Below are positions 2,713 through 20,095 of a DNA stretch of 20,164 nucleotides, in pieces. The stretch is from positions 1 to 20,164 of the IMG/VR virus record IMGVR_UViG_3300030102_003909; one strand, 5' to 3'. Numbering within the stretch: position 1 is the stretch's first letter; each line of letters opens with the position of its first letter. The stretch comes from a virus. Below the pieces are notes generated by a model. It had not been told where the DNA came from and did no database searches. It saw only the letters and a program-made list of their open reading frames with translations. The position numbers were made by a program, and so were the translations under genes.

Positions 2713-2718
2713 GGTTGA

Positions 2719-4269
2719 TTAGAATTGCAATATGATTTTGATATCTTCCTTCTGATTTGAAGATCTTGTTATAGCCGGTCTATTATCAGTGTAAATTATA
2801 TTTCCAGAGAATTGTTTGACCTCTGGGGTAGATACACCACTTGCAAAAGTTTGACCTAGATAATATGTCCTATTATTTATGACTGTTGATAGACCTGTAA
2901 AGTTTTCATCAATATTTAAATTGATGCTTCCTCCGGTGATTGATAAATTACCACCTGTGCCCGGACTACCTGTAAATCTATTCAGATTGAATCCAAAGGA
3001 GGGATTAGTTATAGCAACTCCAACTGTCGTAAATCCCGCAAAAGTTCTTTCCTGCCATAATTTTAAAACTCCAGTTATCTGGTCATAACTAACGACTTTA
3101 CCTATGGCGGTTACACCAGTTCCAATCGTTTGCTGAACAAGTGCATCTTCGGTAAATGTTGCTGAACTAAAACCAATACCTGTTAATCTGAGAGCATAGA
3201 CTCCACTTGCTTTCTCCAAAGACAGTATTTGATTACTACCAAATGCTAATGGATTCTCAACAACCCCAATTCTAGCAATTTCATTACCGGTGATAAAATC
3301 TGGGTTCTCAACATCATTCTCAATTCTTGAATATAAAAGAACATTTGTTGCACCAAGTTCTCTATTAATATCGGCTCCATGACCACCTTTAGGTGGAATA
3401 ATTACATCCAAAACTGGATATGTTTGAGGTTCTGGAACACCACCAGCAACTAAATCAACATTACCAAAACTATATCCAGATCCTTGATTTGAAACAATGA
3501 CACTTTCAACTCTTGAGTCATTATTAATTGTTACCGTACACTCTGCTCCAGATCCATCACCTTTAATAGGAACTTTTGTATAAGTTCTATTTGCAGTTCC
3601 TATACCAGAACCACGATTTTGAACAACTACTATTTTAAGTCCACCATCAACCGCATTTTCTCTAACAGAAGCATCATCATCACTAGTCTCCCAATTATCG
3701 GGAACAGGCATATAATCTGTGCTATCAAATTTAACAATATCAGATGGTTTAATAGTATAGAGATATTTCCAAACATAACCATCACCACTAGTGCCTGCAG
3801 CTCTGGGTTCTAGATCGGTAAATTTGGGTTCATCTAATGATGGTCTTCCATTGGCGTTTTCTTGATCAGTTCCATTTTGAAGACAGATGTAAACTCTATA
3901 ATCACTATTCAAAACAAAATAATTTGAAGAGTATAAAGAAGTTCCGTTAGAGTTTCTAGGTGTATTGTTTATACTATAGTCATGTCTATAATAATCATAA
4001 GTTCTTCCAGATGCCCAGACATTTTTTCTTACTACTTGATTAGCATCATCAGAAGTAATTTTCTTGAGTGCAATGATAGTATCCCAAGTGACATTCTCAT
4101 TAAAAAAGTTGTCGGTTGGTGCCGGAGGAGAATCATTCCAATTTACATCAACATTTGTTGGATTTGGTAAACCCACAAAACTGTAATATGATTTTGCAGT
4201 AGTGTTAAATCCAGCTACAAAATTCTTTGCATTCAATATTCTTATCTGATCAGTTATAATAGCAGACAT
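2719..4269 (-). CDS. 8: Baseplate wedge subunit gp8 (enlarged)
   Basis: This is a homologue of T4 gp8, a wedge protein that binds to the gp7-containing wedge. Recalled T4 gp8 landmarks appear in the same order. SGDGYVWKYLYTI (residues 161-173) matches T4 GDGYVWEYLFEI. RIGVVENPL (333-341) matches T4 ISIITNPL. The C-terminus, IIYTDNRPAI then NQKEDIKIILQF (491-516), matches T4 MIYMENRPPI then QTEEINILFTF. The protein has 516 residues against 334 in T4. The extra length lies in two places: a segment at about 210-277 with two GSG(Y) beta motifs, and about 140 residues between NPL (341) and the C-terminal block. The second insert has a TGVTAIGKVVSYD module near 384-397. The start ATG at 4269 lies 26 bases after the stop of the giant upstream gene. 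No Shine-Dalgarno is evident, but a late-promoter-like box lies 20 bases before the start. The stop is 6 bases before the DUF4815 gene. Confidence 0.92.
   Translation of the reverse strand: MSAIITDQIRILNAKNFVAGFNTTAKSYYSFVGLPNPTNVDVNWNDSPPAPTDNFFNENVTWDTIIALKKITSDDANQVVRKNVWASGRTYDYYRHDYSINNTPRNSNGTSLYSSNYFVLNSDYRVYICLQNGTDQENANGRPSLDEPKFTDLEPRAAGTSGDGYVWKYLYTIKPSDIVKFDSTDYMPVPDNWETSDDDASVRENAVDGGLKIVVVQNRGSGIGTANRTYTKVPIKGDGSGAECTVTINNDSRVESVIVSNQGSGYSFGNVDLVAGGVPEPQTYPVLDVIIPPKGGHGADINRELGATNVLLYSRIENDVENPDFITGNEIARIGVVENPLAFGSNQILSLEKASGVYALRLTGIGFSSATFTEDALVQQTIGTGVTAIGKVVSYDQITGVLKLWQERTFAGFTTVGVAITNPSFGFNLNRFTGSPGTGGNLSITGGSINLNIDENFTGLSTVINNRTYYLGQTFASGVSTPEVKQFSGNIIYTDNRPAITRSSNQKEDIKIILQF
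3439..3642 (-). repeat. GSGY beta-motif pair inserted in gp8
   Basis: Residues 210-277 of gp8 contain two imperfect copies of a beta motif. The first reads LKIVVVQNRGSGIGTANRTY. It is followed by the linker KGDGSGAECTVTI, and the second copy reads VESVIVSNQGSGYSFGNVDL. The layout is [hydrophobic strand]-x-G-S-G-Y-x-x-P/V-x-V, a G-x-GA-x-C/A linker, then another strand. It matches clusters in the neighbouring giant protein. Recalled T4 gp8 has no such segment, so this looks like an insertion or expansion. Confidence 0.7.
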
Positions 4270-4289: not shown

Positions 4290-4297
4290 TATTTATC
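4290..4297 (-). promoter_or_regulatory. T4-like late promoter box before gp8
   Basis: On the minus strand this reads GATAAATA, one mismatch from the T4 late consensus TATAAATA. It is followed by ACTAAAAAA, and the gp8 ATG begins 20 bases after the box. It overlaps the stop codon of the giant upstream gene. The box before gp25 (20088-20095) shares the ten bases ATAAATAACT with it. T4 late promoters are read by host RNA polymerase carrying the gp55 sigma factor; use here is inferred. Confidence 0.5.
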
Positions 4298-7200
4298 AGG
4301 TTACAAACCCAATTGACTTGTACGCAGTTTGTCTAATTACATATGGTCCTGTTTTAATACCTACTATGCCATTTGAAGTAATGGCAGAATATGAGTTAAA
4401 ACCAACTCTTTCACTAAATTCAATCTTACCCCAACTATACTTTCCGTAGAAACTACTGATCGCTAGACCAGCAGCAGTGAATCCATTATAATGTTCAATG
4501 CTAACAGTGACTCTGGCAACATTAGTGGTTCCAACTCCTATTGAAGATGTATTTGCGATAGAGACATCGGCAACTCTATAGATGTTGTCAAGGAAAGAAT
4601 TTCCAACACCAATTACATTACCACTTTCATCAAGAGCAGTGACTCCACTTCCAACATTAGATTCATAGACAATGAAATAATCGCCAGTAGATATTCCACT
4701 AGTTGTTGTTTGTGCAGTGACACCAGTGTTATCCCTTAGAGGAGATATTGCTTCAATTGCCAAATCAAATACAATTCCTGTAGAGGCAACACCCACTGAA
4801 GTTGTATTAATTCCAGTGATAATTCCAAAATCACCACTGAAAGATTCTATTGTATTATCCTCAGTTGTTAATGATATTGGAGGACTGATAAGAACAACTG
4901 GTGCTTTAGAGAAAGTATATCCTGTTCCTGGTGAGGTAATAGTTATACTAGTAACAACACCAGCAGTTATAGATGCAGTTGCATTTGCTCTAAGTGTGCT
5001 TCCTAATCCAACAGGATTTTCTATTGTCACATCAGGAACTACAGAATATCCGGACCCACCTGTAGATAGTGTAATAGAAGTTACTGTTCCTGCAGCAGAC
5101 ACAACAGCGGTTCCTGCAGCACCAATCTTGTCATTACTGTAATTAAACAAGGTTACTTTGTTTTGGAATCCTTTATTTGGAAGTTGAGTTTCATTAATTG
5201 GATTAAATCCTGGTCTTACATTATCAACATATACCTCAGTTGAACCAACACCTACAGATTTAATAAGATATGCAGTGGGGAAAATACTTGGTTCATACAA
5301 AGAGCGTGACTTGTCAACAATTTTTCCATTAATTAGTTTATCATCTCTTTGTCTACACCAATTTATAGGTCTTTCTGTAGTTTCATTTTTAGCTAATCCA
5401 GGTCCAGGATATGCATTTGTATTGAGAGAACTTGCTGAAAGTATTGTATTGATTGTTCTCTTATCCTGGTTCTGTTCAATATTTCCACTGGTGAATTGTA
5501 ATGTGTCTCCGGGTTTGACGGTTTCTAAAACATCAACATTTCTTGTATCAATTTCGCCAGTTCCTTTATAAAGTAAGAATTTAATAGTATCACCTGACTT
5601 GGGTGCCTCAGTGAAAACTATATTACTTCCTCCAGAGAACTGATAAGACTCTCCAGGAATTTGCGGAATATCATTAATAAAGATAAACAGATTATCTTGA
5701 ATGTTAATATTTGAACCCTGAGCAGCTACAACGGATAAGAACTCTCCATTCTTTTTGATCGGGAATCTAGTTCTAGATCCAGTAAAGAGTGTGGAGAAAT
5801 CATCTAATGCTTCAAATTCACCAACAGACCATGCGTTGAATTTATCTCCATCAGTTCTTTCAACCTCAATCTCAAAAGGACTAAATGTTTTGGTAGTATC
5901 TGTAGGAATTCCTGTAGTACCACCAAGACCAACAGTCAGTGTCTGACCAACTTGATATCCAAAACCAGTATTTGAAAGATTAAATTCAATTACGCTAGAT
6001 CCTTGTCCAACGACAATATCAACCTTTCCTCCTGTTCCTACACCAATGGAATCTGATGTGTAGATTAGTGGTATATCAACATATGGAAGTGGATCATCAA
6101 TAACTACATCAAGTGCTTGATCAACTTTACCACCTCTCGCATAGAAGTGAGTTCTGGTAGAAATTCCAGTATTGATTTCAAATGTAGTAGCATCTACGAC
6201 TGCAATAACTGGTGTTCCTGCAAACGCGGCATCTTGACCACTTGGCGAATTGTTTTTAGGTCTTGGAGCAATAATCGCAGCTTGTGCTGTGCCACCAGAA
6301 ACATATTGCGTAGCAACAGTGGTAACTCCAATATTAGTGGTGAATATTGTTGAAGTTCCCACATTGGTGACAGGACTTCCTGCATAATATGGATCACCTG
6401 CTCTGGGATATCTGTGCTGCGTTGTGTTGCCATTCTTAGTGCAGGTAAATATTAGAGATTCTTTGGCAAGTTTAATACTTCTATTCGGAAGTAATGTATG
6501 AGCACCAATGGTTAAAACAAGAGCACCTGTTGCTGGATTATAGGTAGCAGCACTGACATCATAAAGAACAGACTTAGATGTTCCTACATTAACCGTAATA
6601 GTATTGGATGTGGTTGCTGTGATTGCAGTATTAATGCCTGCGATAGGATCAGTTGGTCTTGGATATGGATGATCACTACCCTGTTGATCCATATCACACC
6701 TAAAGACGATTGAACTGGTTGCAATTCCAACAACAACGTTCGTGTCTAGTCCATGATTTGGAATTGTTATTACTAAATTACCATTCTTAGGATCATATGT
6801 AGCACCTGTTGGAGTAAATTGTGTTCCAACTCCAGTCGTCACTGCATTATCCAATGCATATTGGAATGTATGTAAGTAATCTCCACCCTGAATTACTGCG
6901 AAAGTGCCGGAAGTGCCAACAAATGTATGAGCATACTGATCTTTAGCACCAGATCTACCGACATCTAGGGTAATAGTAGTCGCAGTTGTAGAACCAACCG
7001 AGATTGCTGTGTCAAAGAATACATCTCTATTTCTGGGATAAATGTGAGGAACTGTAGCACCAAGACCACAAGTGAATGCCAATCCTGTTAATATCACATC
7101 ACTATTTTTACCTGGGGCAACAGAGAGTCCATGAGCACCGTTTGTAGTAACTGTCAATATACCACTAACATGATCATAAGAAGCAGTAACAACACCTACA

Positions 7201-10200
7201 GATGGAATGTAGTCGCATGTGAAGGCAACGCCAGATAAGACAACATCATCTCCAACAGAAAGATTATGTGGGAAAGAAGTACTAACAGTTGTAAGTCCTG
7301 TTATAGAACCATATCCTACATTAATAATATTTCCTGGTTTGTAGAAAATTTTATTGCTAGTAACGGCGATTCCAGTAATGAATCCATCAGTAATTTGTGC
7401 TGTTCCAATTCCAGTTATGTCAACTCCAGTTCTACTTTGCCTTTGAATTGAAACATTTACTGTTGTCTGAACACCAACTCGATATCCAGATCCACTATTT
7501 CCAATAGCAACGTTCGTAACGATTCCCGTCCTGGCAATCACTGCTGTTCCACCAGCAGCAACAAGAGGTTGATAACCGAGACCGGCTGTAGATCCAACGG
7601 ACAGAAGAACTCCGCCAACAGGGATGTTTGCGTTGTTCACATCATAACTTACAGAACTTGCAGTTCCAGTGAAGTTAATTGAAGTGGCACTACCAACTTG
7701 TGATACGGTATAATTTTTATCTGCTCCCTGAGCCTGTAAAATACCGTTAATTAATATAAGGGTAGATGTCTGTATTCCAGTAACATTTTGTTTATCTGCT
7801 GTTAATACAAATTCTTTATTCAGACCATTGAATGATTGAGATATATCATCATAGATATGATTTTTAGTGTAAGTTTCTTGGTTGCTTCCAGGAACTCCAC
7901 TTCTTAAGAAAGATCTACCGAAGAAAGTTGAAGAAGTTGTTATGCCAATATAATCTCTAAATGACGGTGCATCAGTAGCAGACCCAATTGGAGTATTGCC
8001 AAATGGAGCTTCCGCAAAGTTCAATGTATTACCAACAATATTATAATTACCTTCAATTTTGGTAACTATCGTATCCTTAGGATGACTTGCCAAACCAGTT
8101 CCAAGCCAAGCACGCTGAACCTTAACTGCATTTGTTGTACCAATTCCAATGGAAATAATTTTTACAATTTCATCTGTATCATTAGCACCTATTCTTACAT
8201 AATCACCAGCAAAGAATGAAGTGATTCCGGAGAAGAATAAGATATCTCTATCAACTGTCGCTGCAGTTGATAATCCAGTAGTAACAACACCTGCCACAAT
8301 GGGAGACTGAATCATATTATCAATACTTAATACCACTTTAGAATTTGCATCCTTTGCAGTAAAGGCATGATTTGAACCTGCAGCAACTCCCGTAAATGCA
8401 ACAGAAACTGGATTTTTCTTGAGTGCGTTTTCTGCAGTTGTTGCAAGTTTAATTTCATCTTCACCATTTTTGATGCAGAATACACTTGCTGGTAATGTTG
8501 TTGTTGTTCCAACTCCAACAAATCCATCTGTAGAGGCAATTGAAATGAAATCTGTTTTTATTCCCAAAGGACTTGAATATACCAGTTCTTGACCGGTAAC
8601 AAAGAAATGATTAGGTAGGTAAATTGTATTGTCTGTTAGATCGACGATTGTGGAATCTGATGCATTGAAGGTCTTAGTAAAGATCGTGTCATTCTTATGA
8701 GTAAGTGGGAAAGATCTTTTAACACTAACTTCAGTTCCGGTGTAAGTGTCGAAATTGGATTCCATGGCAGCACAATCCAAATCTTTCTGGAATTGAGCAG
8801 TATTCAAATCTTCTGCAGTATTCAACTTATTGATGAATGTTTTAACATGAACATCAATACTTGGATTGGGAGTAAAGTTGATAACTGTTACGTTTCCAGA
8901 TCTAGTAGCACCCAAAGTTCCTAATCCCACAGTGCTCTCGCCACCAGAAGTATCAACTGCAGCATATTCAGTTAAAGATACGGTAGTGTCATCATCAACA
9001 ATGGTGAATTCAGACATCTGATGAATATTGTTTGTTTTATCAGAAACAACAATTATTCCATATGCAGCATCAACCTCAGTATCTGCGGTGGTTCCATATT
9101 GTCCAACAACTGTTGCAGTTGGAGACCCTGCCGATGCTATGTCAACACCTTTGGCTGTTAATTGTGCAAATCTATACTTATCTGTTCCAACTCCGAGATA
9201 TCTCTCAGATGAGAAACCTACAGATAACACATTGACATGCGTAGTGGTTACACCTGCAATGGGTTCAAAATCGATCAGCAAATCGTTATTATTCAAACTT
9301 GCACTAAATGAACCTAATCCAGTTGATCCACTCTGCGAATCAAGAGTTGTATTTGTTAGTTGGTTATATTCTAAAATTTGAACATTTGTTCCATCATGAA
9401 TAACACTAACTTCTTCAAACTCATTTTCATCATTAGAATTTTCAATACTCACAATTAATTTTGTTGCTCTGACTCCCGATGTATCGGTTCCAATTCCACC
9501 AATGGTAAGTAAGTTTGTTGTTGTACCTCCACCGATTATGATATTTGAACTCGCCACCGAAACTAATGCACCAGGGAATCCAGTCGCTGTTGATACTCCA
9601 ATGTTACTTGTATTAAGTCCAACAGTAGTAGTGTTTAAACCTAATCTATCTAAACCAAATGTGAAAATTGACAGAGCATAGTTATTGAATTTAAATTTAG
9701 TTGGGAAGAATTGTAAAACTCCCTCACCACCTTCAAGAGCGTAATCGTAACTTCCTAAGTCATTAACAGTAGCAAGATCACCATATTGACTGATCATAGA
9801 TTGTCCATTGGATGGACTATTCACCACTGTGACGATAGAGATTTGTCTTTCTGCTCCAAACACTGTATCTTTTGCAAGACATATGTATTTGATTGCAAGT
9901 CCATCTTTCAAAGACCTTCTTGCAACAATTTCAAATGGAGTAGTTCTTCTATTGCTATTGAAAAGACCGCTTATGTCATCAATATTCAAAACTCGGTTAC
10001 TGACAGATTCGACATAATCCTGTATAACCCTAGTATTGAAGGTTATTTCATCTGAAAACTCACCAACGCTTTGCTGTAAGTAATTTTCTGTTGCAAGGTC
10101 AAAGTTATTAACACATTCCAAGTCACCAACACTGATCATATCAATTTCAATAGTTGTTGAGTCTATGGGAACAATTGATAGAGACTCTTCTTTATCACCT

Positions 10201-13200
10201 GTTAATTGAGATTCTACCTGAAGATCTGCAAACTTCTTGAATCCTGATGTATGAAGTAAAGAACTTACTACATCATTCCAATCATCAAATGGAATCTTTG
10301 ATTTAATAGAATATGAGAAGTTTTGATAGTAATCGTTGTCGGCTATTTTTTGATCGGATTTATTTAAGAATCCAATACTAGATTTCCAACCATTATCAAC
10401 AATAGAGAAATAATCTAAATTATATTCACTATTAAAATCATAATTTTTAACAATAGTTGCTTTGGACCCAGTTGCTAGTTCTTCAATTTCATTTCCGACT
10501 ACAAATTTGTCAGATCCTTCAACCGTGAGTAATAAGTTTGTCGCATCCCAATTGGCGACAACCCCTTCAAAACCATCAGAAACAACAGTGTTTCCTTTTT
10601 GAAAATCATTTGGAACTAATTTAAAATTAAATACTGGGAAATATCTTTGAGGAGTTATAGTTATGGTAGAATTTGTAGTATCAAGAGAACCAAGACTCTC
10701 CGTATCTTTCAGTTTATCAAATTTATATGTAACAGTTCCATCAACACCACCAAGATTTGGATCTACTTCTAAAACTTCAAAAAGTGCATAATCATATTCT
10801 TCAGAGTTAAATCCATTTGATGTAGTTCCGACCCCAACACTAGCATGTTCTACTAGTATCTTATCTCCAACGACTATAGGGAAGTTTTCACTATATTCAT
10901 CCTTCATAGTCGCAGTCACTGTTTTTGCCGATGCGTCGTATACCAAATTAGAAACTCTAATTCCATTTGGATTATCAACTGGCAAAATAATCGGATCCTC
11001 GTTGCTCAAGGATTGTGAATTTTTCAAAATAACAACATTAGGATCACCTAATTTATATCTTATATCTAAATCTTTGAGTTGCTTACCTGTAGATCCGTCA
11101 ATAACTACTAAAGCAGGTGGTGTGACATATCCTTGACCAAAAGATGTTATACCAATACTTTCAAATTTAGAGAAAGTAGCAATTTCCAACACCTGTGGAA
11201 TTTGTACAGTTGGTGCTAAGGTAGAATCAGAGGGATAATTGAAACCAATATTTTCTAACTCAGTTCTGGTAATCTTTCCAATTTGTGTACTGGACGGTTT
11301 TAAAACAGCACCTCTTCCCAAGGAACTAGTTATTGTGCTAATACCAGGTAATTTGGAATATCCCTTTCTTCTGTCATTTATGTCAATTTCGGCAATTCCA
11401 CCAAATTCAGAAAGAGAATTTGTAGTGTACGATATAGAAGCTGCTTCTGTGCTAGCATATGAAACAGATTCTGGAAACTGATTTAGATTATAGGAGAATG
11501 TATTTGTAGTAACTCCAGTAACAGCATGTTCCCCAGTGAAAAGACTTTCAGAAACAGAAATTTGATTGTGTCCTTGAACGTCCTCACTTATAACAGACTC
11601 TAAATTAGTTTTTAAATTACCAGATACTCTCAGAGGTTCTAATCTATAGTAAAGTATTTTGGGAGTGTTTTTTGTTATGTCTAAATCTACTCTTGCTCCC
11701 GGAGTTCCGATTGTGCCAATTTGGCGAACTGCAAAATCAGAAGTCTTACCCTCAGTAATATATTCATTAGTATAGTTTGAGTCTTTGTATATTTTAAAAG
11801 TAAAAGCAGGCAAGAGAGTAGCATTTACTTCATAAGACAATGTAGAATTACTTAAATCAAATCTGACACTCGTATCTTTATAAAATTTGATGGGAGGATT
11901 TACAGGAAGAAGTGATCCTGAAGAATCTTTTGTAATATCAACAAATTTTGGAATTGGTTGTTTTGTTTGATATTTTGTATCGCATAATTTTACATTATCA
12001 GTATCTACAACATATGCGTAATACTCTTCATTATTCAATAAACCAGTCGCAGGTGTTTCTGCAGTATGAATAACTTTTTGACCGGTAACTAATCCATGGT
12101 CTGTGATATTGAGCGAGGAATCAGATCCAATTCCTGCTAAAGTAAATGACAACTCGCCAATAGTCATCTTTCTATTGTGAGAGTTATATCTTACATCTTG
12201 AATAGTGGATAATACGGGATCAACCTCTACAAAAACTTTATCATTTCTGAGAAGACTATGCGTTCCCGCTACAGAAACGGTAGCTTGAATCTTATCAATT
12301 TTTCCTCTAACAACTCCTTCATGATTAGTTTGAAGACTGTGATTTACCCCTGTGCCAACTCCAACAAAGAATAATAATCCACAATGAGTGGTTGTAGAGG
12401 CGATGCCCACAAAAGTTCCTGTAGTGCCTAATCCGACCCTTACAGAGGACAATCCGATAAAGTCTGAACCTAATCTAGCAACAAATAATTTTGTTCCATC
12501 GGTTATAATACCAACACCTGCAGTAGCCTCTGTTTGAACTCCGATAGGAGATCCACCATTGAGTTGATATGAAACTTCATCTCCAGTAATTAATCCATGA
12601 TTTGGTAATAATAAATGTTGTGCTAGAATAAACTTAGAAGTTACCCCAGAACCTGGATTTGCAAATACTGCAGTTGATCCAGCACCAACTGCAGTGGATG
12701 AACTTATACCAAGAGCCTCTGATGGATTAAAATAATACTCTCTGTTTCTTCTTTGATTATAAGTTGTTCTATACCCAACATTAATAGTAAATCTTCTAGG
12801 ATCATCCACTATCTTTGTGGATATTGTGTGAGATACACCAACTACTCCATTTTGAGATCTAAGAACTCTTAATCTGGATGATTCTTTATCAATGTTTAAA
12901 ACTTTAACAGTTTCAGTTCCAATTTTTAAAATATCATTTTCTTGTATTTGAGGATAGTCAAAACTTTTTGTGGATACATCGATGAAAGTTACTACACCAG
13001 TTGCATTGACTGTTCCAATGAATTTAGAAACAGTGAGTTTATTAGTAGAAACTCCAACCTGATATCTTCCAGCAAGTTTTGATGTAGTGGTTGAAATACC
13101 TGCTAAGTTAATAATATCAGTGTCTTTAAGTTTATGAGAAACACTTGCGATACCTATAAATGAACTGTTTCCAATAGGATAAAACTCAATATTAGAAAAA

Positions 13201-16200
13201 CTAGTTGTGGCGGCACTTATATTAGTTACTTCTCTACCTTTAATCTTAGATATCCTTGCAGCAGAGAAGAAATCTGTATCTATTTCCTTTGTAAAAACAA
13301 TCCTATCATTTACTTTATAATCAGATCCACCAGTTTGAATTCCAATTGCATCAATATAACCTTTTTCTATATTTTTTATAATAGAATCTGATTTTATATA
13401 ATCATATGGTTTTTGCAAATAATCGTATCCACTATTCTTTTTGTTTATAGAATATGGAGATGTGTTTCTTCTCCAATTATGCTTAGTAATGTCATAGGTT
13501 ATTTGATTTGAATTATTATCGGAGTTAAATTTATTTGGTGTAGATCTGAAAGAATCTCCAATTAAATAGGGGAATACTGGTCTCTTAAATCCTTTAAATA
13601 CACCATCTGAAGATGCTGTACCATCAACGGTTGCAAAATAGGCATATACCCCGTTAGGGTAATCTGGAGTTACACAGAATCTTCCATTATTTTTATCTAA
13701 AGTTGATTGACCATTCGATTCAATCCAAGTAAAGTCTTCAATAAAAAACTCTAAAGGGAAAGAGCTTGTAGGTGGTCTATTATCCTTCAAAGATGCAACA
13801 TATCCAGATTTCATTTGAACTATGTTTCCACCATTCTCATTTTCATATGCATATGGTCCATAAATTGGATTACCATCATATGCCCATCCAATTATTCCAG
13901 AGTGATCAGTATTAGTTGATTCTTCACCATTAACTAATTCTAAATCTTTCTTACCATAAAGCAATTTGCCATCAGTATTAATGGAATACAAAACTTTTCT
14001 CAATGCTCTAGGAGCATATGCATGAGACATTTGTAATTGTCCAGTTCCATTGTTTGCTTCGGAAACAAAAACATCATCGGCAATAATATTATTAAGATTT
14101 TTTCTAACCTGGTTAATTGTCCAAGTTTGCAGTTCGCTATTAAACTGAACACCAGATCCGGCTGGAATAATATCAATAGTAGTGGTTGATGAACCATACC
14201 CAACACCAGAATTAATAATTTCAACACCAGTAATGGTGCCATTAGAAAGTCTTGGAGTTAACTTTGCGCCCCTACCAACTCCATTAACAACAAGGGTAGG
14301 AGGGGAATTGTATTCTTGTCCAGATCTATTGACAACCACATCTGCAAATTTTCCATTGATATCAACAACTGCTTCTAATTGTGCCTTTTCTCCTGACCTC
14401 AATGTTACTCTAGGATCTCTCTTAAAGTTGATTGTATCAGATACGCCATATCCAACTCCATTGTTAGTTAAGAAGATATCGGTTACCGACCCTCTAAACA
14501 ATGGTTGAACAACTGCTTTATAGTCACGTCCATCTACGGAGGAAATACCAACCTTACCAACTACTTCAACTTGAATTTGTGGATAATTAAAACTATGAGT
14601 TCCCAGACCAACTGAAGATAGTTCTTGGAACTGATTTGTAACAAAATAATGATCTTTTGAAGTTGATCCTATACCTGCTGTGCTCAGTCTAAACTTATCA
14701 TTGTCTAAGGTCGTAACATAATACTCATCTGTGACAGTAAGACCACCAACTGCAGTACCATCAACAGAATACTTAATAATATCTCCTGTTTTATATCCAT
14801 GACCAGGAATATTAATAAAGTTGAGTGCAGTATTAATTCCAGCAGGTGCACAAGTTCTCTGTTTGTTCTGATATCCTACACCAGGATCAGTGACATTTAT
14901 AGATCCGATTGCGAGTTTATAATTTAAACATCTGAGTTCATGAGTTCCCTCACCAAAACTTTCAAGAGTAACTGTTCCAACACCAGCAACAGCATCACTC
15001 AAATTATTATGCAAAGATATAACATATGGTGACAATACAGATGTAAAGTAAGTAGCGTCTGTTGATATACCTCCGACTGCTTTTTTCCCAAAAGTTTTAT
15101 ATACAACTCTCTCTCCATTTTTAAATCTATGATGGGTAGTGAAACCTATAGTTGATACTGTTGTTCCAATACCTACTTCTCCAATTCCTGTGCTAACTGA
15201 AGAAATACCAGAGGCATTAAAAGAAGCCTGAATGTGTACAGGAATCATGTTTGCTTCAGCCTTAGCACCTACACCGCCGCCACCAGTAATCTTTATTTGA
15301 GGTGTTTCAACATAATCAAATCCGGGATCTATAATTCGTATTTCTTTTAAACCACCACTAACTGCACAAATCCCTGTCGCACCAGATCCAACGGAATCCT
15401 CTATCTTTACAACAGGTGGATTTACAATGTCATAGTCCGAACCACCAGATATTGTATTAACTTTGTTTAAAGTTCCATGATATACAAAATCGGTTGTTTT
15501 GTAATTTAATATCTCAACGCCATTAACCAAAATTCCGGAATATTTTAAATTATTTTTAACAAAACCAGTTCCAGTTACTGGAGGTGCAATTTCTCTGTAT
15601 ATTTTTTGAGGTTCAATTGATTTTCCTTTAAATTTATCTCTTTCAATTTTATTATCGGTAATTACTACAGAATTAACTCCACCAGCAGGAGTCACTGATT
15701 CAAACTTACCAGCGTATAAGTTTGCAGCACTTTTTGCTATCTTAATGGTGCTCTCATCAATTCTCTTGACAAAATATCTACCTTCTGGGAAAATAATACT
15801 TTTAACTGACTCACTACGAATTATACTACCATTAGGTTGAAGAATTTCAGTTACTTCTTTTTCTGGAGTATAGTAAATGATCTCACCTGTAAAGAAATTA
15901 TGATCAATTCCTTGAGTTAAAGTAATTTCTTCTTGACCCAACAGATAAGTTCCATTAATACTAAATGATTGTATTTTTGGATTTACCTTAGTATCCAGAT
16001 ACGATGGTAATGAGTTAGATGATACTAAGACTTTTTCATTATCAACAAAAACATTACTAACATTTGAGTTAAAAGTGGATATATTTGAAAATATATCCGA
16101 TTGAAACTTTGTTATCCTTCTACTTGCTTTAACTATTTTTTGCGGATTTACTACACCAGTTCCTCTCACCAAAAGAATTTTTGAACTAAAAATATCAGTA

Positions 16201-17696
16201 ACAACTAAGTCATTTGGTGCTGGCACACCAGATTCATCCTCCACCATCACAAAGTCTCCCACCTTGAGGATATGATCATCAACGGTGGTCATCTTAAAGA
16301 TATTGTTTTGAGCATCCTCAAGGACTAAACTTTCTACATCATAATACTGAGCACTATTAATAAACCAATTATTAGATTTTAAATCTGTAGCTAGTTTACC
16401 AAGAGATTTAATTTTAATCTTTGTGTCTTTTAATTGATAATATGCATTTGAAGGATCTTTGATACCTTGTATTACAGATCTAATTTTTACCTTAATTCCA
16501 TCATCAATTCTGGAATTGGGATCTATACCGTAAGCAAATGCATCTTGATCAATGACGGTTTTATCTTTAATTTCTCTTACAATATCTTTAGAATCGATAC
16601 CAATAAATTGTGTATTGACTATATCAGAATAAGTTACAATGCCAATTGTTCCATCTTCGTATTTAACTAAAAGTGAACCATTTGGAGGGAATCCTATTGT
16701 AGAATCAACATCAATATAAGTTTGTCCTACGCCAACATTATCGATAACAACTGACTTTGCATGAGGTGTAAATTTACCGTACAGTAATTCGCCAGTGCCA
16801 TCATATGAACTATATGATGAATCAATACTTATTCTATAATATGCGTCGGTAAGAATTCCTACAGAAATTTTTTCAACGTTTGAAATAGGAGCGTATGCTT
16901 TTTCAATAAATGAAGTAGGGTCTTGAAATAAGGTAGCATTTACTAAATCTTCTGGATTTCCTTCAAATGGTTCAACAATTAAATCTCTAGTAAGTTGATA
17001 TCGTGCATCTGATGGATTAATTAAAAAATCTTGAGGTCTTATTAATTCAATATTGTCATTATATAATGCTTTAAATAATATTTTAAAGGATGACTCAGTT
17101 CCCCTTGTAGAATATAAATCCCTGGATTGTCTTATAAATGATGCTTGGTTTAATCCACTAGTTAAATTTTCTGTTTGAAGTCCAGGAAGAATTTGACCTT
17201 TTAACTTCTTTAAAAATTCTTGTAAGAATAAAACACTGAGATTTTTAACTGGGGTTAAAAATGTATGAGTTGCGGCCGCAGAACTTGAAAATTGCGCTTC
17301 TTCTGAATTATTATCTGTTTCATATGAGGTTATGCCAATGAACCCTCTAAGGCAGAATAAAAACCTAGTATCAGTTTTTGCTCGGTATATAATAATTTCA
17401 TCATCAATTTGAAGAATCCCTAAAGACTCTGGAAATCCAGCAGTGCTTTCAACATCGATATAATCTTGAGTTATATCAATATCACTAGTTAATGCTACTT
17501 CATTTATAGTATTGGCATTTTCATTTAATTTAATATAAGAGTCAATATTTTTTATCAGGTCTAATACACCACCCTGAAATTCTAATCCAGCATAATACTG
17601 CGAGAAGAATTCATCAATTAAGGGAAATTCATCTTTTATATAAGATGGTAACTGATTCCCCAGTAAGTGTTGAATTTTTATTCTATTCTTCGGCAT
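4296..17696 (-). CDS. 7: Giant gp7-like baseplate wedge protein, repeat-rich, YHYH-like domain
   Basis: One uninterrupted frame of 4466 codons fills two-thirds of the window in the T4 gene 7 position, between gp6 and gp8. Identification rests on the N-terminus: SRDLYSTRGTESSFKILFKA then LYNDNIELI (residues 191-219) aligns with recalled T4 gp7 RSYDFYSTKGIEASYKFLFK then VLYNEEVEIE. Similarity continues into RDLIVE and EDLVNATLF (237-257), against T4 YDIIVQ and EDLVGQTIY. T4 gp7 has 1032 residues with this block in its C-terminal third; here it is N-terminal with about 4,100 residues after it. Later parts in order: IDVxSTxGFP modules (about 73-125 and 326-368), GSGY clusters, HGL-TGD repeats, a YHYH-like domain (about 1262-1380), a duplicated LTEY module (about 2740-2955), three YPR-DP repeats (about 3500-3790) and more GSGY motifs to the C-terminus. 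It is rich in Gly, Thr, Val and Ser. The only sensible start is ATG 17696, 26 bases after gp6, with a weak ribosome site. Probable role: wedge core plus a large baseplate surface extension (inferred). Confidence 0.88.
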   Translation of the reverse strand: MPKNRIKIQHLLGNQLPSYIKDEFPLIDEFFSQYYAGLEFQGGVLDLIKNIDSYIKLNENANTINEVALTSDIDITQDYIDVESTAGFPESLGILQIDDEIIIYRAKTDTRFLFCLRGFIGITSYETDNNSEEAQFSSSAAATHTFLTPVKNLSVLFLQEFLKKLKGQILPGLQTENLTSGLNQASFIRQSRDLYSTRGTESSFKILFKALYNDNIELIRPQDFLINPSDARYQLTRDLIVEPFEGNPEDLVNATLFQDPTSFIEKAYAPISNVEKISVGILTDAYYRISIDSSYSSYDGTGELLYGKFTPHAKSVVIDNVGVGQTYIDVDSTIGFPPNGSLLVKYEDGTIGIVTYSDIVNTQFIGIDSKDIVREIKDKTVIDQDAFAYGIDPNSRIDDGIKVKIRSVIQGIKDPSNAYYQLKDTKIKIKSLGKLATDLKSNNWFINSAQYYDVESLVLEDAQNNIFKMTTVDDHILKVGDFVMVEDESGVPAPNDLVVTDIFSSKILLVRGTGVVNPQKIVKASRRITKFQSDIFSNISTFNSNVSNVFVDNEKVLVSSNSLPSYLDTKVNPKIQSFSINGTYLLGQEEITLTQGIDHNFFTGEIIYYTPEKEVTEILQPNGSIIRSESVKSIIFPEGRYFVKRIDESTIKIAKSAANLYAGKFESVTPAGGVNSVVITDNKIERDKFKGKSIEPQKIYREIAPPVTGTGFVKNNLKYSGILVNGVEILNYKTTDFVYHGTLNKVNTISGGSDYDIVNPPVVKIEDSVGSGATGICAVSGGLKEIRIIDPGFDYVETPQIKITGGGGVGAKAEANMIPVHIQASFNASGISSVSTGIGEVGIGTTVSTIGFTTHHRFKNGERVVYKTFGKKAVGGISTDATYFTSVLSPYVISLHNNLSDAVAGVGTVTLESFGEGTHELRCLNYKLAIGSINVTDPGVGYQNKQRTCAPAGINTALNFINIPGHGYKTGDIIKYSVDGTAVGGLTVTDEYYVTTLDNDKFRLSTAGIGSTSKDHYFVTNQFQELSSVGLGTHSFNYPQIQVEVVGKVGISSVDGRDYKAVVQPLFRGSVTDIFLTNNGVGYGVSDTINFKRDPRVTLRSGEKAQLEAVVDINGKFADVVVNRSGQEYNSPPTLVVNGVGRGAKLTPRLSNGTITGVEIINSGVGYGSSTTTIDIIPAGSGVQFNSELQTWTINQVRKNLNNIIADDVFVSEANNGTGQLQMSHAYAPRALRKVLYSINTDGKLLYGKKDLELVNGEESTNTDHSGIIGWAYDGNPIYGPYAYENENGGNIVQMKSGYVASLKDNRPPTSSFPLEFFIEDFTWIESNGQSTLDKNNGRFCVTPDYPNGVYAYFATVDGTASSDGVFKGFKRPVFPYLIGDSFRSTPNKFNSDNNSNQITYDITKHNWRRNTSPYSINKKNSGYDYLQKPYDYIKSDSIIKNIEKGYIDAIGIQTGGSDYKVNDRIVFTKEIDTDFFSAARISKIKGREVTNISAATTSFSNIEFYPIGNSSFIGIASVSHKLKDTDIINLAGISTTTSKLAGRYQVGVSTNKLTVSKFIGTVNATGVVTFIDVSTKSFDYPQIQENDILKIGTETVKVLNIDKESSRLRVLRSQNGVVGVSHTISTKIVDDPRRFTINVGYRTTYNQRRNREYYFNPSEALGISSSTAVGAGSTAVFANPGSGVTSKFILAQHLLLPNHGLITGDEVSYQLNGGSPIGVQTEATAGVGIITDGTKLFVARLGSDFIGLSSVRVGLGTTGTFVGIASTTTHCGLLFFVGVGTGVNHSLQTNHEGVVRGKIDKIQATVSVAGTHSLLRNDKVFVEVDPVLSTIQDVRYNSHNRKMTIGELSFTLAGIGSDSSLNITDHGLVTGQKVIHTAETPATGLLNNEEYYAYVVDTDNVKLCDTKYQTKQPIPKFVDITKDSSGSLLPVNPPIKFYKDTSVRFDLSNSTLSYEVNATLLPAFTFKIYKDSNYTNEYITEGKTSDFAVRQIGTIGTPGARVDLDITKNTPKILYYRLEPLRVSGNLKTNLESVISEDVQGHNQISVSESLFTGEHAVTGVTTNTFSYNLNQFPESVSYASTEAASISYTTNSLSEFGGIAEIDINDRRKGYSKLPGISTITSSLGRGAVLKPSSTQIGKITRTELENIGFNYPSDSTLAPTVQIPQVLEIATFSKFESIGITSFGQGYVTPPALVVIDGSTGKQLKDLDIRYKLGDPNVVILKNSQSLSNEDPIILPVDNPNGIRVSNLVYDASAKTVTATMKDEYSENFPIVVGDKILVEHASVGVGTTSNGFNSEEYDYALFEVLEVDPNLGGVDGTVTYKFDKLKDTESLGSLDTTNSTITITPQRYFPVFNFKLVPNDFQKGNTVVSDGFEGVVANWDATNLLLTVEGSDKFVVGNEIEELATGSKATIVKNYDFNSEYNLDYFSIVDNGWKSSIGFLNKSDQKIADNDYYQNFSYSIKSKIPFDDWNDVVSSLLHTSGFKKFADLQVESQLTGDKEESLSIVPIDSTTIEIDMISVGDLECVNNFDLATENYLQQSVGEFSDEITFNTRVIQDYVESVSNRVLNIDDISGLFNSNRRTTPFEIVARRSLKDGLAIKYICLAKDTVFGAERQISIVTVVNSPSNGQSMISQYGDLATVNDLGSYDYALEGGEGVLQFFPTKFKFNNYALSIFTFGLDRLGLNTTTVGLNTSNIGVSTATGFPGALVSVASSNIIIGGGTTTNLLTIGGIGTDTSGVRATKLIVSIENSNDENEFEEVSVIHDGTNVQILEYNQLTNTTLDSQSGSTGLGSFSASLNNNDLLIDFEPIAGVTTTHVNVLSVGFSSERYLGVGTDKYRFAQLTAKGVDIASAGSPTATVVGQYGTTADTEVDAAYGIIVVSDKTNNIHQMSEFTIVDDDTTVSLTEYAAVDTSGGESTVGLGTLGATRSGNVTVINFTPNPSIDVHVKTFINKLNTAEDLNTAQFQKDLDCAAMESNFDTYTGTEVSVKRSFPLTHKNDTIFTKTFNASDSTIVDLTDNTIYLPNHFFVTGQELVYSSPLGIKTDFISIASTDGFVGVGTTTTLPASVFCIKNGEDEIKLATTAENALKKNPVSVAFTGVAAGSNHAFTAKDANSKVVLSIDNMIQSPIVAGVVTTGLSTAATVDRDILFFSGITSFFAGDYVRIGANDTDEIVKIISIGIGTTNAVKVQRAWLGTGLASHPKDTIVTKIEGNYNIVGNTLNFAEAPFGNTPIGSATDAPSFRDYIGITTSSTFFGRSFLRSGVPGSNQETYTKNHIYDDISQSFNGLNKEFVLTADKQNVTGIQTSTLILINGILQAQGADKNYTVSQVGSATSINFTGTASSVSYDVNNANIPVGGVLLSVGSTAGLGYQPLVAAGGTAVIARTGIVTNVAIGNSGSGYRVGVQTTVNVSIQRQSRTGVDITGIGTAQITDGFITGIAVTSNKIFYKPGNIINVGYGSITGLTTVSTSFPHNLSVGDDVVLSGVAFTCDYIPSVGVVTASYDHVSGILTVTTNGAHGLSVAPGKNSDVILTGLAFTCGLGATVPHIYPRNRDVFFDTAISVGSTTATTITLDVGRSGAKDQYAHTFVGTSGTFAVIQGGDYLHTFQYALDNAVTTGVGTQFTPTGATYDPKNGNLVITIPNHGLDTNVVVGIATSSIVFRCDMDQQGSDHPYPRPTDPIAGINTAITATTSNTITVNVGTSKSVLYDVSAATYNPATGALVLTIGAHTLLPNRSIKLAKESLIFTCTKNGNTTQHRYPRAGDPYYAGSPVTNVGTSTIFTTNIGVTTVATQYVSGGTAQAAIIAPRPKNNSPSGQDAAFAGTPVIAVVDATTFEINTGISTRTHFYARGGKVDQALDVVIDDPLPYVDIPLIYTSDSIGVGTGGKVDIVVGQGSSVIEFNLSNTGFGYQVGQTLTVGLGGTTGIPTDTTKTFSPFEIEVERTDGDKFNAWSVGEFEALDDFSTLFTGSRTRFPIKKNGEFLSVVAAQGSNINIQDNLFIFINDIPQIPGESYQFSGGSNIVFTEAPKSGDTIKFLLYKGTGEIDTRNVDVLETVKPGDTLQFTSGNIEQNQDKRTINTILSASSLNTNAYPGPGLAKNETTERPINWCRQRDDKLINGKIVDKSRSLYEPSIFPTAYLIKSVGVGSTEVYVDNVRPGFNPINETQLPNKGFQNKVTLFNYSNDKIGAAGTAVVSAAGTVTSITLSTGGSGYSVVPDVTIENPVGLGSTLRANATASITAGVVTSITITSPGTGYTFSKAPVVLISPPISLTTEDNTIESFSGDFGIITGINTTSVGVASTGIVFDLAIEAISPLRDNTGVTAQTTTSGISTGDYFIVYESNVGSGVTALDESGNVIGVGNSFLDNIYRVADVSIANTSSIGVGTTNVARVTVSIEHYNGFTAAGLAISSFYGKYSWGKIEFSERVGFNSYSAITSNGIVGIKTGPYVIRQTAYKSIGFVT
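4873..5095 (-). repeat. Tandem GSGY beta-motif pair near the giant protein's C-terminus
   Basis: Two adjacent protein-level copies are visible. The first reads VTSITLSTGGSGYSVVPDVT and the second reads VTSITITSPGTGYTFSKAPV. They are separated by a linker with GLGSTLRANATASITAG. The period is about 40 residues: strand, G-S/T-GY turn, P-x-V-x-I strand, Gly/Ala linker, strand. It is the clearest tandem example of the GSGY motif seen elsewhere in this protein and in gp8. Confidence 0.75.
6325..6552 (-). repeat. YPR-DP repeat, copy 3
   Basis: Protein-level repeat within the giant gp7-like protein. It begins AATYNPATGALVLTIGAHTL, contains SLIFTC, then HRYPRAGDPYYAG, and closes with TSTIFTTNIG. It aligns with the two upstream copies at 6580-6815 and 6950-7195 through the order Y-x-P/H-x-(S/T)G-x-L-x-(V/L)T, H-x-L, S-x-x-F-x-C, H-x-YPR-x-x-D and a final (V/I)G. 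Confidence 0.75.
6580..6815 (-). repeat. YPR-DP repeat, copy 2
   Basis: Second copy of the module. It begins GATYDPKNGNLVITIPNHGL, contains SSIVFRCDMD, then HPYPRPTDPI, and ends NTITVNVGTS. It is directly followed by copy 3 with only a few linker residues, which supports a tandem array with a period of about 85-90 residues. Confidence 0.75.
6950..7195 (-). repeat. YPR-DP repeat, copy 1
   Basis: First copy of the module. It begins TASYDHVSGILTVTTNGAHG, contains GLAFTCGLG, then HIYPRNRDVFF, and ends TTITLDVGRSG. A partial further copy (NLSVGDDVVLSGVAFTCD, about 7200-7270) precedes it, so the array may begin earlier with degraded units. The Cys in the FTC/FRC position is kept in all units of an otherwise Cys-poor protein. 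Confidence 0.7.
8830..9072 (-). repeat. LTEY module, copy 2
   Basis: Protein-level duplicate of 9213-9480 in the giant protein. Order of landmarks: AAYGIIVVSDKTNNIHQMSE, FTIVDDDTTVSLTEYAAVDT, STVGLGTLGATRSGNVTVIN, and FTPNPSIDVHVKTFI. Both copies show two strands, a D-(G/D)-T-x-V turn, an (L)TEY/LEY signature, a G-LG-x-(F/L) stretch and a closing strand ending in xVxVxxxx. Confidence 0.65.
9213..9480 (-). repeat. LTEY module, copy 1
   Basis: First copy. Landmarks: RATKLIVSIENSNDENEFEE, VSVIHDGTNVQILEYNQLTN, SGSTGLGSFSASLNNNDLLI, and DFEPIAGVTTTHVNVLSV. It is offset from copy 2 by about 400 bases (about 135 residues). I recall similar HDGT-LTEY modules in other phage tail and fibre proteins, but no function is known to me. 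Confidence 0.65.
11965..12620 (-). repeat. HGL-TGD repeats, cluster 2
   Basis: Two copies of a module lie here in the giant protein. The first has PNHGLITGDEVSYQLNGGSP, later FVARLGSDFIGLSS. The second has ITDHGLVTGQKVIHTAETPA, later EYYAYVVDTDNVKLCD. Pattern: H-G-L-x-T-G-x-x-V-x-(Y/H) followed 25-35 residues later by (Y/F)-x-V/A-x-x-x-x-D-x-(V/I)-x-L. It resembles the pair at 14570-15142. Confidence 0.7.
13556..13910 (-). other. YHYH-like domain within the giant gp7-like protein
   Basis: Around residues 1262-1380 the protein has HSGIIGWAYDGNPIYGPYAY, then LEFFIEDFTW, NNGRFCVTPDYPNGVYAYFA and FPYLIGDSF. I recall GWAYDGxPIYGPYGY as the core of the YHYH protein family (Pfam PF14240), which occurs in secreted bacterial proteins and in virion proteins of T4-like cyanophages. 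The histidine-containing YHYH string that names the family is not present here, where YAYFATVD stands instead. Fold membership is therefore likely, but an intact metal-binding or catalytic site is not shown. Confidence 0.7.
14190..14475 (-). repeat. GSGY beta-motif cluster (three copies)
   Basis: Three consecutive copies in the giant protein read, in protein order: FLTNNGVGYGVSDTINF, VVNRSGQEYNSPPTLVV, and VEIINSGVGYGSSTTTIDI. Linkers are Gly/Ala/Lys-rich (GEKAQLEAVV and VGRGAKLTPRLSNG). Together they define a 35-45 residue unit of strand, G-x-(G/E)-Y turn, strand, and G-x-(G/E)-A-x-L/A linker. Confidence 0.75.
14570..15142 (-). repeat. HGL-TGD repeats, cluster 1
   Basis: Two copies in tandem. 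The first has TTHHRFKNGERVVYKTFGKK and AVGGISTDATYFT, closing GEGTHELRC. The second has IPGHGYKTGDIIKYSVDGTA and VGGLTVTDEYYVTTLD, closing VGLGTHSFNYP. They share the order H-(G/R)-x-x-(T/N)G-x-x-(V/I)-x-Y, then VGG-(I/L)-(S/T), then a Y-(F/Y) strand, then an end with GTH-(E/S)-(L/F). This is the clearest internal duplication of the N-terminal third. Confidence 0.75.
15295..15450 (-). repeat. GSGY-type beta-motif pair (GFDY/GSDY)
   Basis: Two diverged copies read VNTISGGSDYDIVNPPVVKI and IRIIDPGFDYVETPQIKITG. They are joined by a linker with GSGATGICAVSGG and followed by GGGVGAKAEANM. The central Gly-x-Asp-Tyr replaces GSGY, but the strand-turn-P-x-V/I-strand layout and the G-x-GA linker are the same. 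Confidence 0.7.
17040..17126 (-). other. T4 gp7 core signature at N-terminus of the giant protein
   Basis: This stretch encodes residues 191-219, SRDLYSTRGTESSFKILFKA followed by LYNDNIELI. It is the region most alike to T4 gp7 as I recall it (DFYSTKGIEASYKFLFKVLYNEE). It is preceded by EFLKKLKGQILPGL (160-173), which I also recall from gp7-type proteins of marine T4-like phages. In T4 the C-terminal part of gp7 carrying this block joins the gp6 dimer in the wedge core bundle. Confidence 0.8.
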
Positions 17697-19657: not shown

Positions 19658-20059
19658 TTACCTTGTTGGTTGCAAAACGAATTCTAATTGTTGCTCTGGA
19701 ATATCTACACCGATGATTTTGTAAATGATCACAGCATTATATTGATTTGAGTCAAAATCTGGGTTAACTCTAACTCCTGTCAATTGAACTCTTGGCTCAA
19801 AGATCTCAATGGAATTTTTAATTTCATCGCGAATTGATATCGCAGTTATATCGTCCATGTTCTCAAAAAGCATCTGTGATACTCTTGATCCAAAGGTCGG
19901 TTCAAAAAACTTCTCTCCAGGAGTTGTAAAAATGATATTACGAACTGAGCGAGAAATCGCAGTAGTATTTTTTAATGCAACAAGGTCATTATTAAGAGGA
20001 TTAATCTTAAATGACATACTTACATCTTTAAAATTGCGACTAGCTCGCTCTAAAGGCAT
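19658..20059 (-). CDS. 25: Baseplate wedge subunit gp25
   Basis: 133 residues, almost the size of T4 gp25 (132). gp25 is the small wedge protein that contacts gp6 and the first sheath ring; it is the conserved relative of W-type and type VI TssE baseplate proteins. Visible features: a basic N-terminus followed by MSFKINPLNNDLVALKN (15-31), RSVRNIIFTTPGEKFFEPTF (37-56), and the family EPR motif in IFEPRVQLTGVRV (86-98). It closes with a beta strand, AVIIYKIIGVDIPEQ. The ATG at 20059 is the first in the frame; no Shine-Dalgarno is visible in the AT-rich leader. A late-promoter-like box ends 28 bases before the ATG, so this gene probably heads a gp25-gp6-gp7 transcription unit. In T4, gene 25 is not next to gene 6; the direct adjacency here is as I recall for marine T4-like phages. 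Confidence 0.95.
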   Translation of the reverse strand: MPLERASRNFKDVSMSFKINPLNNDLVALKNTTAISRSVRNIIFTTPGEKFFEPTFGSRVSQMLFENMDDITAISIRDEIKNSIEIFEPRVQLTGVRVNPDFDSNQYNAVIIYKIIGVDIPEQQLEFVLQPTR

Positions 20060-20087: not shown

Positions 20088-20095
20088 TATTTATG
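20088..20095 (-). promoter_or_regulatory. T4-like late promoter box before gp25
   Basis: On the minus strand this reads CATAAATA followed by ACTTATATT; it differs from the T4 late consensus TATAAATA at the first base. It sits in the only gap of about 50 bases in the window and ends 28 bases before the gp25 ATG. It shares ATAAATAACT with the box before gp8. Position and shared extension make it more credible than single-mismatch matches inside genes. Confidence 0.55.

Follow-up and report, generated by a model that had tools for sequence, protein, structure and literature searches.

An open reading frame of 4466 residues occupies the slot of the baseplate wedge gene gp7 on a 20164-base IMG/VR virus fragment. 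The locus raises the questions of whether this is one intact gene, how its size compares with that of its relatives, whether its product is homologous to T4 gp7, and where the additional residues would be placed in a baseplate. According to the available text of PMC3004832, T4 gp7 is a monomer with six copies per virion, which together with gp8 forms the platform for gp6 and is a component of the pins alongside gp10 and gp11. The fragment is the entire source record, is referred to here as the window, and is the part of this genome that the analysis covered.

The locus and its reading frame

The wedge genes of the window are arranged as follows:

19658 to 20059, minus strand: gp25 wedge protein, 133 aa (PF04965)
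17723 to 19657, minus strand: gp6 wedge protein, 644 aa (PF21379, PHROG 219)
4296 to 17696, minus strand: giant gp7-type baseplate wedge protein, 4466 aa, with an ATG start and without an internal stop
2719 to 4269, minus strand: gp8 wedge protein, 516 aa (PF09215, PHROG 438)

A DUF4815 gene that is open at the window edge follows gp8, and its counterpart in S-SM2 is named VrlC. The initial annotation had described a single frame of 4466 residues in the gp7 slot, and this is confirmed, on the minus strand and with gp6 and gp8 on either side. Its observation that the frame shows neither a stop nor a sign of a frameshift is likewise upheld by the coding signal along the ORF and by 34 distinct IMG/VR contigs that carry the complete gene in a single frame. 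Among these 34 giant loci, gp6 is present in all and gp8 additionally in 25. The coding test used 200-codon windows in which 60 or more codons were aligned to L051, L053 and SynMITS9220M01, whose proteins are 73% (L051, 4462 aa), 61% and 61% identical to the window protein, respectively. Third codon positions held 0.42-0.68 of the differences in every testable window, compared to the one third expected under no constraint. For aa 3401-3800 (two windows) the comparison was with L051 only, the block being absent from L053 and SynMITS9220M01.

The heptamer ATAAATA, which is the core of the S-PM2 late promoter in the available text of PMC2984593, is found at 20088-20094 and 4290-4296 (both minus strand), immediately upstream of gp25 and gp8. 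The window contains four copies in total, fewer than the 9.9 expected by chance.

Size compared with relatives

At the DNA level, megablast of the window matched 54 records, the best being SynMITS9220M01 with 43% covered. At the protein level, PHROG 2885 ("baseplate wedge subunit") matched residues 2-4456 with 3314.1 bits, over profile positions 6-4172 of 4179. Lengths of the gene in the gp7 slot were taken from 14 cyanophage records, HTVC008M and T4, and are given below in residues:

Compact proteins: HTVC008M 1016; T4 1032
Shorter cyanophage genes: S-CRM01 1454; S-PM2 3048; S-WAM2 3446
Split genes: Sf-FS3 2995 and a second gene of 2492; S-SSM7 3007 and 3001
Further single genes: S-B05 4024; SynMITS9220M01 4067; Bellamy 4067; S-SM2 4156; ACG-2014f 4225; P-TIM68 4307
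Single genes longer than that of the window: P-SSM2 5195; syn9 6076; P-SSM4 7312 (the annotation figure; 6285 codons were read)

A longer single gene than the window's thus occurs in three of the 14 cyanophage records. Among closed ORFs in IMG/VR the N module was found 56 times, in 34 giants, 18 compact proteins of 996-1032 aa and four others (223, 503, 520 and 1564 aa), which are neither giant nor compact, may be broken or split genes, and were excluded from the length counts. The 34 giants span 3926-4597 aa and four exceed the window protein, although these lengths are biased toward the window's because the loci were drawn from the best 80 per query and are near relatives.

The initial annotation had placed the protein near the upper end for this slot, expecting an exceptional added mass in the baseplate if it is made whole and present once per wedge, and had proposed comparing the lengths of genes between gp6 and gp8. 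That comparison was carried out and does not support the placement near the upper end, and the size is not exceptional. Longer genes occur in both samples (3/14 and 4/34), 4466 aa falls within the ordinary range, PHROG 2885 spans the protein, and GenBank relatives already bear the names gp7 or baseplate wedge initiator. By length and profile match, the window protein is an ordinary-sized new member of PHROG 2885, a known giant gp7-type family of marine cyanobacterial phages. In a set of 50,697 phage records, 467 match its N-terminal 420 residues, and 458 of these are named Synechococcus, Cyanophage or Prochlorococcus; its C-terminal 400 residues match 93 phage records. Relatives of its YHYH region are encoded in at least 596 IMG/VR stretches. 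Among marine T4-like phages, giant gp7 genes are frequent. The computed mass is 479.6 kDa, or 2.88 MDa for six copies, a number extrapolated from T4.

Core motif 1 and homology to T4 gp7

The following parts of the protein were delimited from profile matches and motif positions:

17517 to 17696, minus strand: N-terminal segment, aa 1-60, proposed by way of compact gp7 to be the helix-turn-helix of the core bundle
17001 to 17150, minus strand: core motif 1, aa 183-232, which corresponds by homology to T4 gp7 727-758 and is proposed as the trifurcation segment
10365 to 17000, minus strand: internal insertion between the core motifs, aa 233-2444, about 2213 residues
10197 to 10364, minus strand: core motif 2, aa 2445-2500, YYQNFSYSIKS..P...W...V....H..GF
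4299 to 10196, minus strand: C-terminal extension, aa 2501-4466, about 1969 residues, of which aa 2600-4466 gave no match to T4 or compact pelagiphage gp7

Several searches connect motif 1 to T4 gp7. With hhalign, aa 150-245 aligned against seven T4-type gp7 sequences to T4 726-759 (E 1.9e-11), and a single-sequence PDB search with the window protein returned T4 gp7 727-759 (E 0.022). A profile of aa 1-370 searched against 177,635 PDB sequences found two distinct gp7 sequences (E 3.2e-6 and 2.5e-5), the remaining four rows being short unrelated chains (0.16-0.18). Window aa 187-218 match PHROG 964, to which T4 gp7 belongs, at 726-757 (E 1.4e-5); reciprocally, T4 gp7 matches PHROG 2885 at 196-224 (E 1.3e-4). 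Motif 1 scores 39.6 bits in T4 gp7, a value reached by none of 1000 shuffles. When 98 overlapping 90-residue windows were compared with T4 gp7, motif 1 gave 97.5 and 97.4%, motif 2 gave 14.7% and the rest at most 2.9%, with the T4 matches of the motif 1 and motif 2 windows in collinear order.

The T4 gp7 domain models PF21428 (helical), PF21427 (V) and PF21456 (VI), all matched by T4 gp7 itself, are absent from the window protein at E<=0.1. Since these models are not detected, we file the protein as a gp7 homologue and not as a T4-type (Straboviridae) gp7. A description as T4 gp7 plus extra sequence was considered and rejected, as no match to T4 residues before 726 exceeded 0.7% in the top ten of the window-by-window scan; a long-segment alignment of aa 7-382 was nonetheless drawn from T4 466 onward. 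The gene lies between gp6 and gp8 and carries core motif 1, two of the features that mark gp7-type wedge proteins broadly defined. Gene order and profile matches bear out the assignment to the gp7 slot and the kinship with T4 gp7, and by these matches the homology of the window protein to T4 gp7 is confined to a small core.

Core motif 2 and the compact gp7 proteins

A motif 2 model based on the giants was found in 38 of 39 non-T4 targets, the miss being L266, a 592-aa fragment. The motif 2 piece also matches PHROG 17744 (671-731 of 765), PHROG 26741 (375-480 of 497) and PHROG 3465 (721-780 of 978), so that motif 2 is clear in compact gp7 families at the profile level. In T4-type gp7 it is weak, found in seven of seven sequences at the same place with 5.6-8.9 bits. 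For T4 itself (about 865-888) hhalign gave a weak match (14.7%, E 0.0018), and the score of 8.0 bits was reached by none of 1000 shuffles, the best of which scored 7.2. Homology of motif 2 to T4 gp7 865-888 is likely but not strong. Single-sequence Pfam pieces recovered motif 2 neither in the window protein nor in T4.

Compact pelagiphage gp7 resembles the window protein around both core motifs. The match is strong for aa 1-420 (98.2%), and aa 2000-2700 match pelagiphage gp7 367-988 (98.4%, E 8.8e-15). Segments within aa 400-2100 match compact gp7 partly and in overlapping registers (78.7-92.1%), as expected of shared repeat domains, and three segments covering aa 2600-4466 gave no match to compact pelagiphage gp7 (0.8%, 1.0% and 24.6%) or to T4. 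In the compact protein L272 (981 aa) the chain stops 15 residues past motif 2, and the next gene is gp8 (PHROG 438, PF09215).

The Pfam model PF23786 reflects the same interruption: its positions 230/231 are 520 residues apart in HTVC008M, and positions 221/235 are 2729 apart in syn9. No single stretch exceeded the cut-off of 27 bits in 11 records, and the whole HTVC008M protein scored 48.9 bits. The window protein scored 13.7 bits, under the same cut-off, and a genome search of the window gave no match to this model. An AlphaFold2 model of compact HTVC008M gp7 (L017) built from 32 sequences had a pLDDT of 48.9 and a pTM of 0.35 and was unusable for core packing. Both the HTVC008M gene (NC_020484.1, L015:33435-36485) and its family, PHROG 3465, bear the annotation "head closure Hc2". 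This name looks wrong because the gene lies in the gp7 slot and its product matches PHROG 2885 (E 1.1e-38) as well as PF23786.

The N-terminal segment is reached through the compact proteins. Direct hhalign comparison of aa 1-65 or aa 1-110 with T4 gp7 gave no match; aa 1-223 match the HTVC008M-type PHROG 3465 at 1-206. T4 gp7 646-758 in turn matches the compact PHROG 17744 at 12-121 (E 3.6e-4), and compact L272 7-118 matches the T4-type PHROG 964 at 643-757 (E 0.001). By these two matches the start of the compact proteins lies at the helical domain of T4 gp7, and that of the giants would lie there too. Weak PF23786 matches (7-35/8-41) are also found in S-SM2, Bellamy and HTVC008M (E 0.002-0.008). 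For the first ~640 residues of T4 gp7 no counterpart was detected in giants or compact proteins.

A core in two pieces

The two motifs divide each protein into three intervals. For each protein the list gives the residues ahead of motif 1, then those separating it from motif 2, then those past motif 2:

T4: 726, 106, 144
29 compact proteins: 86-192, 429-786, 15-213 (the 29 of 32 sequences with a stop in the locus for the count after motif 2)
S-CRM01: 181, 1090, 83
S-PM2: 181, 1588, 1178
Window: 182, 2213, 1969
34 IMG/VR giants: 182-204, 2168-2490, 1455-2083
syn9: 690, 2720, 2572

Across the family, length varies at three points, namely ahead of motif 1, between the motifs and past motif 2. Growth before motif 1 is seen in syn9 and, by BLASTP, in P-SSM4. 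In T4 the interval between the motifs contains domain V (PF21427, 766-861). By sequence comparison, the gp7 core is kept in two pieces and the insertion sits at the position of T4 domain V, the T4 match of motif 2 being weak.

Repeats, domains and folds of the additional residues

Much of the protein is repetitive at the level of profiles. When 200-residue profiles of the giants were compared with one another, 33 of 903 pairs reached 95% and 71 reached 80%; in reversed controls none of 903 reached 50%, the best being 7.8%. By this comparison 2500 of the 4466 residues fall in at least one internal repeat. BLASTP self-comparison of the protein found no repeats at E 1e-3, and no simple tandem repeats were found in the window DNA. 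Local features of the two additional regions are:

14922 to 15239, minus strand: FCCH-like beta-barrel (as in ubiquitin E1), aa 820-925, model m40b9dfe3bceb, VIA Z up to 8.5 to Uba1
14583 to 14867, minus strand: endosialidase-like beta-barrel, aa 944-1038, VIA Z 6.2-6.8
13614 to 13919, minus strand: YHYH domain (PF14240), aa 1260-1361, 78.2 bits against a cut-off of 25, profile 88-186 of 193
6108 to 7361, minus strand: extra repeat block, aa 3446-3863, about 417 residues, from the alignment of giants

PF14240 is matched in all 35 members of alignment A7, window included. The YHYH domain of the window contains the stretch VYAYFAT, of which Y-A-Y-F is invariant across the 35 members, and which we take to be the place of the motif that gives the family its name. 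The repeat block is filled in six of 41 aligned giants (L051, L086, L088, L119, L120 and P-SSM2). It has HxL...F(T/R)C and YPR motifs, and several similar stretches are present in P-SSM4. The syn9 giant (L014:1263-16000) carries Laminin_G_3 lectin-type domains and a Phycobilisome match that barely exceeds the required score (22.8 bits against a cut-off of 22.2, E 1e-4).

The structure predicted for aa 600-1500 (pLDDT 75.2, pTM 0.65) is mostly beta. The resemblance of the aa 944-1038 barrel to the phage endosialidase barrel is suggestive only. Models of this kind often give Z values of 7-8, and the FCCH likeness lies near that level. Profiles of the two barrels gave a best E of 1.1 against PDB sequences, which confirms neither likeness. 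PF12195 (endosialidase barrel) was found in three of 35 members, with a best E of 0.066, and was not listed for the window piece. The VIA-align rows for this model concern mostly one barrel, the remaining parts being barely probed. The sole Foldseek PDB match with E <0.001, an RNA polymerase chain, was rejected (TM 0.04), and the lone baseplate chain among the Foldseek PDB rows shown was 8env_K (TM 0.04-0.06). Against predicted viral proteins, Foldseek returned mainly relatives of the protein itself, among them Bellamy gp7 (45% identity, TM 0.70 normalized to the query) along with further proteins of cyanophages.

Elsewhere in the chain, a profile of the C-terminal 607 residues matched one tail tape measure chain in the PDB (E 0.009), a profile of aa 2050-2650 had no match among PDB sequences, and PF22639 (tail sheath domain) was found in four of 35 relatives (best E 0.0011). 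Alignment A6 was built without L247, which contains an unknown residue, and the A8 and A9 profiles comprise 20 of the 34 IMG/VR giants plus the window protein. The initial annotation had called the structure and role undescribed, which holds for the PDB sequences and open-licence papers searched: no structure or structural description was found in them.

Proposed role and alternatives

We consider it probable that this is a gp7-type wedge protein of a T4-like cyanophage, with its nearest named relative in the Kyanoviridae, whose split core pairs with gp6 and whose arms form the baseplate periphery. The core pieces would form the (gp6)2-gp7 wedge heterotrimer and initiate wedge assembly. The insertion and the tail, largely repeated domains together with YHYH, would depart from the core at the site to which peripheral parts are attached in other phages, and would make up the baseplate rim or underside. 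There they may take on the structural and host-contact functions served in T4 by gp10, gp11 and gp7's own domains. Six copies, pairing with gp6, location at the rim and contact with the host are all predicted.

A further step is offered tentatively and is, in our estimate, doubtful: the wedge protein itself may be the baseplate periphery, its arms of repeated domains, some of them resembling the endosialidase barrel, contacting the host surface and standing in for gp10/gp11-type pins, such that host recognition would be built into the wedge and would evolve as the number of domains at set positions of the core changes.

Bearing on the favoured reading, the available text of a review (PMC2984593) states that wac and genes 10, 11, 12, 34, 35 and 37 are missing from cyanomyoviruses. 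Of 10 records searched, gp11 (PF08677) was found in T4 only, and the gp9/10 N domain (PF07880) in T4, syn9 and P-TIM68 only. By these models SynMITS9220M01, Bellamy and S-SM2, the three closest records searched, are therefore without both. As syn9 and P-TIM68 have a giant together with a gp9/10-type gene, giant gp7 is not a simple replacement, and because of these two phages and the split genes in S-SSM7 and Sf-FS3 the arrangement is not rigid.

Those split genes bear on another reading, in which the whole polypeptide is made and then cut, or the tail acts as a separate module, with the gp6-bound part in the virion far shorter than 4466 residues. In S-SSM7 (L009:2562-21656) and Sf-FS3 (L008:2526-20055) the C-terminal part is a gene of its own (3001 and 2492 aa), which comes after a gene of 340-341 aa, and 533 and 525 residues remain past motif 2. 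However, the N, YHYH, motif-2 and C modules share one frame in the 34 complete IMG/VR relatives, and 12 of the 14 cyanophage records have one gp7-type gene only in the slot, so we regard this reading as fairly unlikely. Additional genes lie between the giant and gp8 in S-CRM01 (317 and 504 aa), S-PM2 (175), P-TIM68 (814) and S-B05 (458), and in syn9 a gp10-like gene directly follows the giant.

It is improbable that a fibre-type or adhesin structural protein merely occupies the slot, gp7 having been lost and VrlC serving instead. Most of the chain is without a match to T4 gp7, the T4 gp7 Pfam domains are not detected, and the syn9 record is annotated "putative fiber". A survey of pelagimyophages also states, in its available text, that T4 gp7 is absent from pelagiphages and cyanophages and apparently substituted by VrlC (PMC7029224). 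The core is nevertheless significantly homologous to T4 gp7, and VrlC is a separate gene after gp8 in S-SM2 and HTVC008M, as is the DUF4815 gene of the window. Given the core homology and the separate VrlC, the sequence argues against the absence of gp7 from these phages as worded in that text. That assembly fused two genes, or that the ORF conceals a frameshift, is very unlikely given the 34 contigs and the coding signal along the ORF; this reading was rejected with nothing found in its favour.

The family was already known as PHROG 2885, with relatives annotated gp7 in GenBank, and the window protein is an added member. For the gp7-type wedge protein that we favour, the split core (aa 183-232 and 2445-2500) predicts the exit points of two giant arms from the gp6-gp7 bundle, and through this anatomy the placement of ~4000 extra residues per wedge becomes a direct question.

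Comparison with known systems

The closest named counterpart, the SynMITS9220M01 giant gp7 (4067 aa, "baseplate wedge initiator"), is collinear with the window protein, the identity of 61% extending over 4048 aligned codons, and its genome has the same order of gp25, gp6, gp7, gp8 and structural protein. It differs in being without the ~417-residue repeat block (aa 3446-3863). Compact gp7 of HTVC008M (1016 aa) shares both core motifs and has partial matches to the insertion domains, but its motifs are separated by 525 residues and 205 remain past motif 2, whereas the window protein has ~2213 and ~1969; in addition, the HTVC008M genome is without a YHYH match, a domain that the window protein has. 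The likeness to T4 gp7 (1032 aa) consists of the slot, core motif 1 and a weak motif 2.

As a working model for a small wedge core that carries peripheral parts, we liken the protein to XM1 gp17, from its description in the available text of PMC10457771. That protein is a gp7 ortholog of 242 residues that forms the core with a gp16 dimer, and its regions 80-106 (a loop) and 201-242 (the C-terminal end) bind the tail spike. In XM1 the peripheral spike is a separate protein, whereas in the window the extra mass is on the gp7 chain itself. The insertion of the giants follows motif 1, whereas the spike loop of XM1 (80-106) precedes its residues 107-133, and the equivalence of the two positions is conjectural.
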